Of a DNA stretch of 64,000 nucleotides, positions 46,706-53,642 are shown in pieces. Each line of letters begins with the position of its first letter. The first letter of the stretch is position 1. A program made the translations under genes and the position numbers. The notes under the pieces were generated by a model. The model was not told the DNA's origin, did no database searches, and saw only the letters and a program-made list of their open reading frames with translations. This DNA is from Urbifossiella limnaea. Its GTDB lineage: Bacteria; Planctomycetota; Planctomycetia; Gemmatales; Gemmataceae. The DNA is taken from the NCBI RefSeq assembly GCF_007747215.1, contig NZ_CP036273.1, forward strand, positions 3,518,322-3,582,321, written 5' to 3'.

Positions 46706-47293
46706 CTACCGCGTCGGGTCACAGCCTGGGATGGTGGCGCAGGCGTCGTGGTGGTCGACAAGCGGCTCGGCCTTGGGGAAGTCGATGTCGGTGTCGGCGA
46801 CGTGGTTGAAGTAGTTGGTGAACACGTTCAGCGCGACGTGGGCGACGACCTCGGCGATGGCCCCGTCGTCGTACCCGGCCTCGCGGACCGTCTGGAGGTC
46901 GGCCCCCGACACCCGCCCCTTGGTGTCCACGACCACACGAGCGAACCGGATGAGGGCGTCGGCCTTCGGGTCCACGGCGGTGCCGTGGCGGCTGTCGCGG
47001 ATCTGGTCGGCGGTCAGCCCGGTCATTTTCCCGATGGCGGTGTGGGCGGCCAGGCAGTAGTCGCACCCGTTCGCCTGGGCGACGGCGAGGGCGATCTGCT
47101 CGCGGGTCTTGGCCGGCAAGGCCCCCTGGGCGAGCGCGCCGCTCAGTTGCAGGTAGCCGTTGAGCGCCGCCGGGGCGTTGGCCATCGCCCGCGTCATGTT
47201 CGGGACGAGGCCGAGCTTGCCCTTCACGGCGTCGAGCAGTTCCTTGGCCTTGCCGGTGGCGGACTCGGGAGCGATCTGGTTCAGGCGGGACAT
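46706..47293 (-). CDS. AhpD-like carboxymuconolactone decarboxylase-family peroxidase
   Basis: 195 aa from ATG 47293. The active site is C77-D-Y-C80 with His84 (ANGCDYCLAAHT), the alkylhydroperoxidase D signature. Other family strings are KLGLVPNMTRAMANAPAALN and REQIALAVAQ. It is likely a peroxidase or thiol-redox partner. It is the first gene of the operon and faces the sigma-54 regulator at 47509 across a 215-bp region. Confidence 0.92.
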   Translation of the reverse strand: MSRLNQIAPESATGKAKELLDAVKGKLGLVPNMTRAMANAPAALNGYLQLSGALAQGALPAKTREQIALAVAQANGCDYCLAAHTAIGKMTGLTADQIRDSRHGTAVDPKADALIRFARVVVDTKGRVSGADLQTVREAGYDDGAIAEVVAHVALNVFTNYFNHVADTDIDFPKAEPLVDHHDACATIPGCDPTR

Positions 47294-47361
47294 GGTCGTG
47301 ATCCTTTCGAGGTTGGGTGGCGATCGCTCAGGGAGTTCTGGGCGGTTGAAGCAGTAACAAA

Positions 47362-47376
47362 TCAGGTTCCGTGCCA
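47362..47376 (-). promoter_or_regulatory. Candidate sigma-54 promoter of the redox operon
   Basis: Read on the minus strand, TGGCACGGAACCTGA has a perfect -24 box (TGGCAC) and GA where -12 needs GC, with the correct 10-bp spacing. The transcript would start about 50-60 bp before the AhpD-like gene. The neighbouring regulator is sigma-54 dependent, which supports the idea. The imperfect -12 box keeps confidence low. Confidence 0.35.
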
Positions 47377-47422
47377 ATCCGGAATCGAAGTCGCAAAGCA
47401 TTGCTCCACATTGCTTTACAGT

Positions 47423-47499
47423 CATCTAACCAGATGTGATACAGCCACGAATTTTCGTGAATTGACGAGATTTCGTAACGGAAGCACGGTTTTTCGTAA
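47423..47499. promoter_or_regulatory. Repeat-rich control region between regulator and operon
   Basis: CATCT-AACC-AGATG is an inverted repeat at 47423-47436, and CACGAA-TT-TTCGTG is another at 47446-47459. TTTCGT(G/A)A recurs at 47453, 47471 and 47492, about two helical turns apart. These are good candidates for upstream activator sites of the adjacent regulator. Confidence 0.5.
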
Positions 47500-47508
47500 G
47501 TCAACCGC

Positions 47509-49119
47509 ATGGACCTGCCACTCACCTCGTCCCTCTTCACCGACCCGAAGCGACTGCTGTTGGACCTGGCGAAAGAGCACCACCTGTCCGAACTCTTGCG
47601 ACTCCTGGTCGGCCGTCTGGCGGACTCGCCGCGGGTGGCGCTGGCTCGGGTGTGGCTCGTCCGGCCGGGCGACATCTGTGACGCCTGCCCGATGAGGGGT
47701 GAGTGCCCGAACCGCGTCCGTTGCCTGCACCTGGTGGCGAGCGCAGGTGGCTCGAAGACCGCACCGGCCGAAGAGTGGACCCGGCTGGACGGCGCGTTCC
47801 GCCGGTTCCCGCTCGGGGTTCGCAAGGTCGGGCGCATCGGGGCGAGTGGGGAGTCCATCGAGGCGCCCGACCTGTCGGCCGGCACCCCAGACTGGATCGC
47901 CCGCCCGGAGTGGCTCCGGGCCGAAGGGATCAGCGGCTTCGGCGGGCAACCGCTCGTCCACCGCGGCGAGACGCTCGGCGTCCTGGCCGTGTTCGCCCGC
48001 GGCCCCATCGGCCCCGACTGCATGGACTGGCTGCGGACGATCGCCGACCACACCGCCGCCGCCATCGCCACGGCCCGGGCGTTCGAAGAGATCGAGGCGT
48101 TGAAGAAGCGGCTGGAGTTGGAGAACGAGTACCTGCGGGAGGAGGTCACCCGGAGCGGCGCGTTCGGCGAACTCGTCGGCCAGAGTCCGGCCCTGGAGGC
48201 GGTGTCCCGCCAGATCGATCTGGTGGCACCGACCGACTCGGCCGTCCTCGTCCTGGGTGAAAGTGGGACCGGAAAGGAACTGGTCGCCCGCGAACTCCAT
48301 CGTCGCAGTCGGCGGGCGGGCAAGCCGCTCATCAAGGTGAACTGCGCCGCGATCCCCCGCGAACTGTACGAGAGCGAGTTCTTCGGCCACCTGAAGGGGT
48401 CGTTCACCGGGGCGACGCGGGACCGTGTCGGGCGGTTCGAGCTGGCCGACGGCGGCACCCTATTCCTCGACGAAATCGGCGAGATCCCGCTCGACCTGCA
48501 AGCGAAGCTACTCCGAGTGCTACAAGAGGGGGAACTCGAACGCATCGGCGAGGAGAAGACTCGGAAAGTCGATGTGCGGGTTGTCGCGGCGACCAACCGC
48601 GACCTGAAGGCGGAGGCCGAGGCGGGGCGGTTCCGGCAGGACCTCTACTACCGCCTGAGCGTGTTCCCGGTCGAACTGCCGCCGTTGCGGAAGCGGTCCG
48701 AAGACATCCCCCTGTTGGCCGAGCACTTCCTGGCACTGCTGTGCCGAAAACTCGGGCGGCCGAAACCACGCCTGACGCTGGCGAACGTCCAGGCACTTCA
48801 GAAGTACTCCTGGCCTGGAAACGTGCGAGAACTCCAGCACGTGATCGAGCGGGCGGTCATCACCGCCGAGGGCGGACGCCTGACCATCGAATTGCCAACC
48901 GCATCGCCCCCGGCCGGTCGAGTCTCGCCGACGCCGGCACCCGCGACGAGCAGGATCTTGACCGACGCCGAGTTGCGGCAGGTGGAGGCGGACAACATCC
49001 GGGCGGCGCTGAAGCAGACCCAGGGGAAGGTGTCTGGTCCGGGCGGGGCGGCGGAACTGCTCGGCCTGAAACCCACCACGCTGGCGTCGCGGATCAAGTC
49101 CCTCGGCATCACGGGGTGA
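47509..49119 (+). CDS. GAF-domain sigma-54-dependent transcription activator
   Basis: 536 aa. An N-terminal GAF sensor holds clustered cysteines (C57, C60, C66, C72 in CDACPMRGECPNRVRCLHL), suggesting metal, Fe-S or redox sensing. The AAA+ domain has Walker A GESGTGKE (250-257), the sigma-54 contact loop GSFTGA (298-303, variant of GAFTGA) and Walker B TLFLDEIGE. A Fis-type HTH ends the protein (PGGAAELLGLKPTTLASRIK). It is NorR/FhlA-like in layout and likely activates the divergent operon. Confidence 0.92.
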   Translation: MDLPLTSSLFTDPKRLLLDLAKEHHLSELLRLLVGRLADSPRVALARVWLVRPGDICDACPMRGECPNRVRCLHLVASAGGSKTAPAEEWTRLDGAFRRFPLGVRKVGRIGASGESIEAPDLSAGTPDWIARPEWLRAEGISGFGGQPLVHRGETLGVLAVFARGPIGPDCMDWLRTIADHTAAAIATARAFEEIEALKKRLELENEYLREEVTRSGAFGELVGQSPALEAVSRQIDLVAPTDSAVLVLGESGTGKELVARELHRRSRRAGKPLIKVNCAAIPRELYESEFFGHLKGSFTGATRDRVGRFELADGGTLFLDEIGEIPLDLQAKLLRVLQEGELERIGEEKTRKVDVRVVAATNRDLKAEAEAGRFRQDLYYRLSVFPVELPPLRKRSEDIPLLAEHFLALLCRKLGRPKPRLTLANVQALQKYSWPGNVRELQHVIERAVITAEGGRLTIELPTASPPAGRVSPTPAPATSRILTDAELRQVEADNIRAALKQTQGKVSGPGGAAELLGLKPTTLASRIKSLGITG

Positions 49120-49458: not shown

Positions 49459-49579
49459 CGCGGCCGACCTCCGGGAGAAATGGGGGCGAGGGGGACAGGC
49501 GGGCCGCGCGTCGTGGTATAACGTCCGACGCCGGGGGCGTCCCGGCTATTCGTCGCCCCGCCGCAACCGGAGGTTCTTC

Positions 49580-50158
49580 GTGACACGAGTTCTCGCGCTC
49601 GCGGTCGTGCTGGGGGTCGCGCTCGCCGCGCCCGCGGCCGACCCTGCCCCGGAAAAGACCGGGATCAAGGTCGGGGAGAAGGCCCCGGCGTTCAAGCTCA
49701 AGGACCAGGCCGGCACCGAGCGGGACCTGGCCGCGCTCCTGAAGGACGGGCCGGTCGCGCTCGTGTTCTACCGCTCCGCGGGCTGGTGACCGTACTGCCA
49801 GAAGCAACTGGTTCAGTTGCAAAAAGACCTGGCGACGATCGAGGCCGCGGGCGTCAAGGTGGTCGGCGTCAGCTACGACGCGGTGGCGGTGCTGAAGGGG
49901 TTCGCGGACAAGCAGAAGATCACGTTCCCGCTGCTCTCCGACCCGGACAGCAAGACGATCGCGGCCTACGCCCTGAGGAACAAGGAGACGGCCGGGAAGA
50001 AGTTCGGGAAGGCCGATCTGGACGGCGTCCCGTACCCCGGCACCATCCTGGTCGGGACGGACGGCGTGGTGAAGGCCAAGCTGTTCGTGGACGGCTACCG
50101 GGAGCGGCACGGGACGGCCGAACTCGTCAAGGCCGCGGAGGGGCTGAAGAAGAAGTAG
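49580..50158 (+). CDS. Secreted peroxiredoxin-like protein with probable selenocysteine at residue 70
   Basis: GTG 49580 follows GGAGG at ideal spacing. Signal peptide ~1-20 (VLALAVVLGVALAAPAA). The redoxin domain begins KVGEKAPAFKLKDQAGTERD and reaches FYRSAGW, then an in-frame TGA (49787, codon 70), and continues without break: PYCQKQLVQLQKDL, VVGVSYDAVAVLKGF, FPLLSDPDSKTIAAYALRN, PYPGTILVGTDGVV. The TGA replaces the first Cys of W-C-P-Y-C, leaving C73. The full length of 192 residues fits the family. A stem-loop of SECIS type follows at 49797-49833. If TGA is only a mutation, this is a pseudogene. A nitroreductase follows 57 bp on. Confidence 0.65.
49797..49833 (+). promoter_or_regulatory. 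Candidate bacterial SECIS hairpin
   Basis: Downstream of the TGA at 49787, GCCAG (49797-49801) pairs with CUGGC (49829-49833). Above an internal loop, GCAACUG (49804-49810) pairs perfectly with CAGUUGC (49814-49820), leaving the apex GUU. The apical G is 22 nt after the TGA. Bacterial SECIS elements have a GU in a small apical loop about 16-37 nt after the UGA, so the fit is good. It lies inside coding sequence, as expected in bacteria. Confidence 0.6.
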
Positions 50159-52946: not shown

Positions 52947-53642
52947 ATGCGGACCGTCCGCCAGTTCGCCGACCGGCCGGTTCCGCGGGCGGTCATCGAG
53001 GCGTGCATTCGCACCGCGGGCACCGCCCCGAGCGGGGCCAACCTCCAGCCGTGGCACTTCGTGGTCGTGTCGGGCCCGGACCTGAAGGCCCGCATCCGCG
53101 GGGCGGCCGAGGAGGAGGAGCGAGAGTTCTACGCCCGCCGCGCCCCGCAAGTGTGGCTCGACGCGCTCGCCCCGATCGGCACCGATGCCCACACGCCGTT
53201 CCTGGAGACCGCCCCGTACTTGATCGTCGTCTTCGCCCAACCCCAGGATGACGGAAGACGGGGTAACGGTGCCAGGATCACCAAGAAGCGTCTCGACGAG
53301 TTCTCCCTCGGGATGCCCCTCCTGTTCTGGGCCACCGCGACGTGGTGGATCCCGATCCTGTTCGCGCTGGGCGTGTGGCGGCACCTGACCCGCCACTTCC
53401 CGCTGACCTACGACCACGGGTACTGGGCGGCGGTGTTCCCGCTCGGCATGTACACCGTCTGCACCCGGACGATGATCGACGCCCTCCGCCTGCCGTACCT
53501 GGAGCCGATCCCAGACGCCTTCGTCTGGGTCGCCCTGGTCGCGTGGTCGGCCACGTTTCTCGGGCTGGTGCACCGACTCGTGGTCCCGCCCGCGGGGTCT
53601 TTGAGCGATCCTGCGCCGCCCGGTGCGGGTGTGGCGGCGTGA
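52947..53642 (+). pseudogene. Chimeric remnant: nitroreductase joined to a TDT/TehA-type transporter tail
   Basis: Residues 1-97 match the nitroreductase at 50216 ([50 protein letters not shown]). The middle of that domain is deleted, and its C-terminal [11 protein letters not shown] resumes at once. Then comes the C-terminal membrane part of a TDT-family (TehA/SLAC1-like) transporter: [40 protein letters not shown]. Both parts are incomplete, so the continuous 231-aa frame is probably an accident of deletion rather than a working fusion. Confidence 0.75.

Follow-up and report, generated by a model that had tools for sequence, protein, structure and literature searches.

A candidate UxxC selenoprotein with a peroxiredoxin-like fold in Urbifossiella limnaea

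A gene of Urbifossiella limnaea, located in a window of 64,000 nucleotides (the whole stretch of DNA that was analyzed, to which all coordinates refer), very probably encodes a UxxC selenoprotein in which an in-frame TGA is decoded as selenocysteine (Sec), giving a full-length product of 192 amino acids. The probability of this reading is put at about 0.9. The genome that carries the gene amounts to 7.8 Mb in a single contig; among named organisms, those most closely related to it are Gemmata and other members of Gemmataceae. The features of the locus are as follows.

49569 to 49573, plus strand: putative Shine-Dalgarno sequence GGAGG, 6 nt 5' of the GTG, as judged from the sequence
49580 to 50158, plus strand: candidate gene of a Prx-like selenoprotein with the AhpC-TSA fold; it starts with GTG, stops with TAG and encodes 192 aa including U70
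49580 to 49639, plus strand: probable signal peptide (VTRVLALAVVLGVALAAPAA), judged by eye from the N-terminus
49787 to 49789, plus strand: TGA read as selenocysteine (U70), in the motif U-P-Y-C
49796 to 49798, plus strand: codon of the partner Cys C73, an invariant residue whose counterpart in peroxiredoxin alignments is the peroxidatic Cys
49797 to 49833, plus strand: whole hairpin, extended by a lower stem of 5 bp (RNAfold)
49804 to 49820, plus strand: upper stem-loop of the bacterial SECIS (bSECIS), with 7 bp, a 3-nt apex of GUU and a spacing of 21 nt from the UGA
50036 to 50038, plus strand: codon of P153, at the site of Arg116 of AhpE and the cis-Pro site of thioredoxin-type oxidoreductases (alignments; PMC2757866)
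50216 to 50884, plus strand: downstream gene of the nitroreductase family, which adjoins the ortholog in the sister species too

The TGA at codon 70 was found to be the sole in-frame interruption of the frame. With this codon read as U, the product matched the AhpC-TSA family PF00578 in a profile search (3.2e-32, residues 31-166), and the match to Redoxin PF08534 was weaker (9e-21). Comparison of orthologs revealed purifying selection both before and after the TGA, with most changes at third positions. The claim of the first-pass annotation that the frame is clean around a single TGA at codon 70 was therefore borne out. The GTG start of the ortholog from the sister species is likewise preceded by GGAGG. 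Judging from the N-terminus, the product is probably exported.

The complete machinery for Sec insertion was found in the genome. The tRNA-Sec has a UCA anticodon and scored 78 bits with the covariance model (gathering score, 47), and selA (543 bits, cut-off 268), selB (370 bits, cut-off 242; 640 aa) and selD (384 bits, cut-off 125) were all detected, so that the proposed genome check for these four genes returned every one of them. The machinery is seen at the level of sequence, whereas the insertion of Sec itself is inferred. G. obscuriglobus and I. pallida are known to possess the full set of Sec insertion genes (PMC4807772); Sec genes as such are therefore no novelty in this lineage, in which the first-pass annotation held that a secreted Sec-containing thiol peroxidase would be notable. 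When the genome was scanned with a SECIS model, one real site was obtained and no second selenoprotein was found in this way; the next full-length match to the model (22 bits) offered no usable frame and was discarded. The main matches among the formate dehydrogenase homologs of the same genome are without an in-frame TGA. In Gemmataceae, tRNA-Sec is common, while the Prx-like gene is patchy (6 of 95 genomes), and further selenoproteins are therefore probably present in the family. One genome among those with homologs (G460, contig C57) was observed to carry two tRNA-Sec genes approximately 8.5 kb apart.

This machinery bears on another reading of the codon, namely that UGA is translated as some other amino acid through reassignment or a suppressor tRNA. 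The in-frame UGA itself agrees with such a reading and nothing more does: the tRNA with the UCA anticodon that was detected in the genome is identified as tRNA-Sec by the covariance model, the site pairs always with Cys in homologs, and the covariation described below is SECIS-like. On the tRNA identity and the Cys-only alternation at the site, reassignment was rejected as extremely improbable.

The hairpin that follows the TGA was confirmed both in the sequence and by RNAfold. Its upper stem consists of the perfectly paired arms GCAACTG (49804-49810) and CAGTTGC (49814-49820) with GTT (49811-49813) at the apex, and its lower stem pairs 49797-49801 with 49829-49833, the predicted minimum free energy (MFE) being -14.3. 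The lower stem is absent from the two nearest orthologs. Published limits for bSECIS elements are a loop of 3-9 nt, a stem of 4-16 bp, a spacing of 16-37 nt, a G within the first two loop bases and an MFE of -7.5 or lower (PMC13188914); the GUU loop, 7 bp, 21 nt and -14.3 found here lie within these limits, as had been proposed for the spacing. In an Rfam search at the site no SECIS was found, and the sub-threshold matches there were attributed to chance.

The hairpin had been put forward as an argument in its own right, and in this single gene it proved to be weak evidence. In a chance test based on synonymous recoding of the peptide, with codon usage taken from six genes of the window, a perfect 7-bp stem arose in 11.6% of the recodings, and an equal or lower free energy in 11.7%. 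The peptide at the hairpin site, QLVQLQ, is encoded by near-palindromic codons. The hairpin was therefore dropped as stand-alone proof, and the case for Sec must rest on comparison. What is remarkable instead is that the hairpin covaries across TGA-bearing homologs and that the TGA always stands opposite Cys.

Covariation was assessed in 37 TGA sequences and 27 Cys sequences, with 500 shuffles. In the TGA set, the 7-bp stem was 96.1% paired. At four of its pairs both partners were altered, in 28 cells altogether, and no shuffle out of 500 equaled the real stem in the percentage paired, the number of double-change cells or the covariation score. Pairing was lost when the partner strand was slid. 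The same columns in the Cys set were 65.1% paired, which is like shuffles. The apex in the TGA set was always GUN (35 GTG, 13 GTC and 5 GTT), whereas it was mixed in the Cys set. A TGC ortholog from Gemmataceae CJuql4 (L059:3130-3177; LR594584.1), whose genome contains tRNA-Sec, was observed to keep a complete 7-bp hairpin with a GTT apex. This hairpin is either a relic SECIS left after a change from Sec to Cys or a feature of a Cys gene pre-adapted to Sec, and the locus provides material for studying the decay or origin of SECIS elements.

The homologs show the same pattern at the codon itself. The ortholog of the sister species is 83% identical; it shares the position of the TGA, the hairpin and the nitroreductase gene that follows. 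Five of the six Gemmataceae genomes with the gene have TGA and one, CJuql4, has Cys; in the wider phylum, orthologs of 39-48% identity also have TGA. Among 86 loci (the best 80 of 255 from a scan of named genomes, plus earlier loci), the site was TGA in 58, TGC in 21 and TGT in 7, with no other codon, in a sample biased both by this restriction to the best 80 and by the fact that one of the two search patterns can match Cys only; a few of these loci are second copies of one record, without which 53 TGA and 28 Cys forms remain. An alignment of homologs, as had been recommended, accordingly gave U or C only at this position. The hosts of the listed homologs belong to Planctomycetota, Acidobacteriota, Verrucomicrobiota, Gemmatimonadota, Chloroflexota, Myxococcota and Pseudomonadota. 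Of the 29 genomes with the TGA form, 25 yielded a tRNA-Sec, as against 4 of the 26 that have the Cys form only (Fisher p ~1e-7, which is only a guide since related genomes are not independent). The four TGA-bearing genomes in which tRNA-Sec was not detected are all metagenome-assembled, and their incompleteness probably accounts for the gap. The tree requires eight changes of U/C label, at least five of them on well-supported branches, indicating that Sec and Cys have been interchanged repeatedly. Locus L055 has the Cys form at the site. In two distant Planctomycetota genomes (L053, match 1501-1992; L054, match 1501-2019), the Sec Prx-like domain was observed to lie inside longer frames of 445 and 428 aa, respectively, the translations of which show a C-terminal extension.

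These comparisons decide against a pseudogene, in which a Cys gene would have acquired the TGA by nonsense mutation or through an error in sequencing. A single change from TGC to TGA would suffice to produce such a gene, and a Cys ortholog does exist in CJuql4; but the same TGA recurs in independent genomes of many phyla with no other stop or residue at the site, constraint acts on both sides of it, the hairpin covaries, and the genome has the full Sec machinery. With the TGA conserved in other species, the pseudogene reading was rejected as having almost no likelihood. The earlier judgment that a random nonsense mutation was not to be expected is upheld by the same conservation and by the constrained frame. 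Sec decoding, in turn, is strongly supported by tRNA-Sec and selA, selB and selD, by the TGA kept in orthologs and by the covarying hairpin. Of the outcomes that the first-pass annotation had named as refuting it, those open to computation (a genome without tRNA-Sec or selB, or homologs with Cys throughout and no conserved hairpin) were not observed.

What does the Sec residue do? The first-pass annotation had placed the UGA at the catalytic Cys and taken the product for a thiol peroxidase. The first statement holds insofar as the TGA stands opposite a Cys of the homologs, but it is not at the peroxidatic Cys: when profiles are aligned with peroxiredoxins of solved structure, the Thr/Ser of TxxC is matched by U70 and the peroxidatic Cys by C73. 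In a profile alignment to ResA, U70-P-Y-C73 lies on C-E-P-C, U70 corresponding to the first Cys of WCxxC. In 33 aligned family members, the first position of the UxxC motif is U or C and the second is always C, and the Pro at the position of AhpE Arg116 is invariant. Peroxiredoxins use the C-terminal Cys, with Thr/Ser at the N-terminal place and Arg at the cis-Pro site, whereas thioredoxin-type enzymes have both Cys residues and the Pro (PMC2757866). Here, U70 occupies the Thr/Ser place of the peroxiredoxin motif PxxxT/SxxC, and P153 that of the active-site Arg, so the assignment as thiol peroxidase is doubtful. Given the active-site alignment and the replacement of Arg by Pro (roles according to PMC2757866), a thiol/selenol-disulfide oxidoreductase is favored over a peroxidase as the likelier activity.

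The same selenoprotein might nevertheless work as a peroxidase, with U70 as a peroxidatic residue in the manner of GPx (N-terminal Sec, UxxT) and C73 resolving, an alternative held to be possible and clearly the less probable one. GPx does use the N-terminal position (PMC2757866). An AlphaFold2 model built with 33 family members (mean pLDDT 89.8; low confidence for residues 1-30) found BcpB, PrxQ and AhpE as the nearest solved folds in a structure search, with an rmsd of 1.7-2.9 for BcpB and AhpE; PrxQ/BCP and AhpE are peroxidases. None of the NCBIfam models scored above its own cut-off with the product, and the best of them was the thiol peroxidase model PRK09437 (64 bits, cut-off 140). Against these points stand the displacement of U70 from the peroxidatic position of Prx, the Pro in place of the Cys-activating Arg and the published description of the UxxC PF00578 group as thiol:disulfide oxidoreductases (PMC13188914).

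For the oxidoreductase, the following mechanism is proposed. The bSECIS hairpin would recruit SelB carrying Sec-tRNA-Sec, which would insert Sec at U70 to yield the 192-aa protein. U70 would then attack a disulfide or another oxidized substrate, C73 would resolve the selenenylsulfide, and recycling of the enzyme might fall to a reductase of the membrane or periplasm. The protein would accordingly act as an exported thiol/selenol-disulfide oxidoreductase, its activity and location both being predictions.

The predicted protein fits a group of selenoproteins that has already been described. A UxxC selenoprotein of PF00578 in the Sargasso Sea data was reportedly described as a Prx-like protein. 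Such proteins are known as Prx-like 1 from the Global Ocean Sampling (PMC2398784) and have been named Prx-like thiol:disulfide oxidoreductase (PMC13188914, PMC9312934). They share with the present protein PF00578, UxxC, a bacterial SECIS right after the UGA and many Cys homologs, membership of the subfamily (published member, e.g., WP_010940744.1) being judged from fold and motif only; the present gene differs in its occurrence in a Gemmata-like planctomycete. In the papers searched, the gene is nowhere described for Gemmata. PrxU of Eubacterium acidaminophilum (TxxU) also combines the AhpC-TSA fold with Sec, but its Sec is at the peroxidatic C-terminal position rather than the N-terminal one, and the PrxU model NF040737 gave 21.5 against a cut-off of 270. 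SelL-related redox proteins (NF040769) have a similar Prx-like redox domain, with a weak match of 50 bits that lies below the cut-off of 120. The ResA/TlpA/CcmG thiol-disulfide oxidoreductases resemble the product in that WCxxC aligns with WUPYC, in the Pro at the cis-Pro site and in probable export, whereas the product is overall nearer to AhpC-TSA/BCP and has Sec instead of the first Cys.

More tentatively, the members with RSAxW-UxxC and Pro153 might constitute a distinct, widespread and exported lineage of Sec oxidoreductases that is not represented among the NCBIfam models, within which at least five exchanges between Sec and Cys would have taken place, together with the gain or loss of the SECIS, and which might be one reason why some Gemmataceae keep the Sec machinery; this proposal is a speculative one that we consider rather unlikely as a whole. 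Gene finders without Sec rules stop at codon 69 or treat the gene as defective, and the protein can therefore readily escape notice in genomes of Planctomycetota, Acidobacteria and Pseudohongiella-like bacteria. The clean Sec/Cys series (56 + 28 rows, at least five switches) offers a means of asking what advantage Sec confers on an oxidoreductase of the UxxC type.

Other genes of the neighborhood were also noted. Just upstream of the selenoprotein gene, a carboxymuconolactone decarboxylase (AhpD-like) gene (46706-47425, minus strand) is divergent from the gene of a sigma-54 activator with a GAF domain (47509-49119, plus strand). Further downstream, a single frame at 52947-53642 (plus strand) joins an N-terminal part of a nitroreductase to a C-terminal piece of a SLAC1-family channel, and is either a remnant or a fusion.
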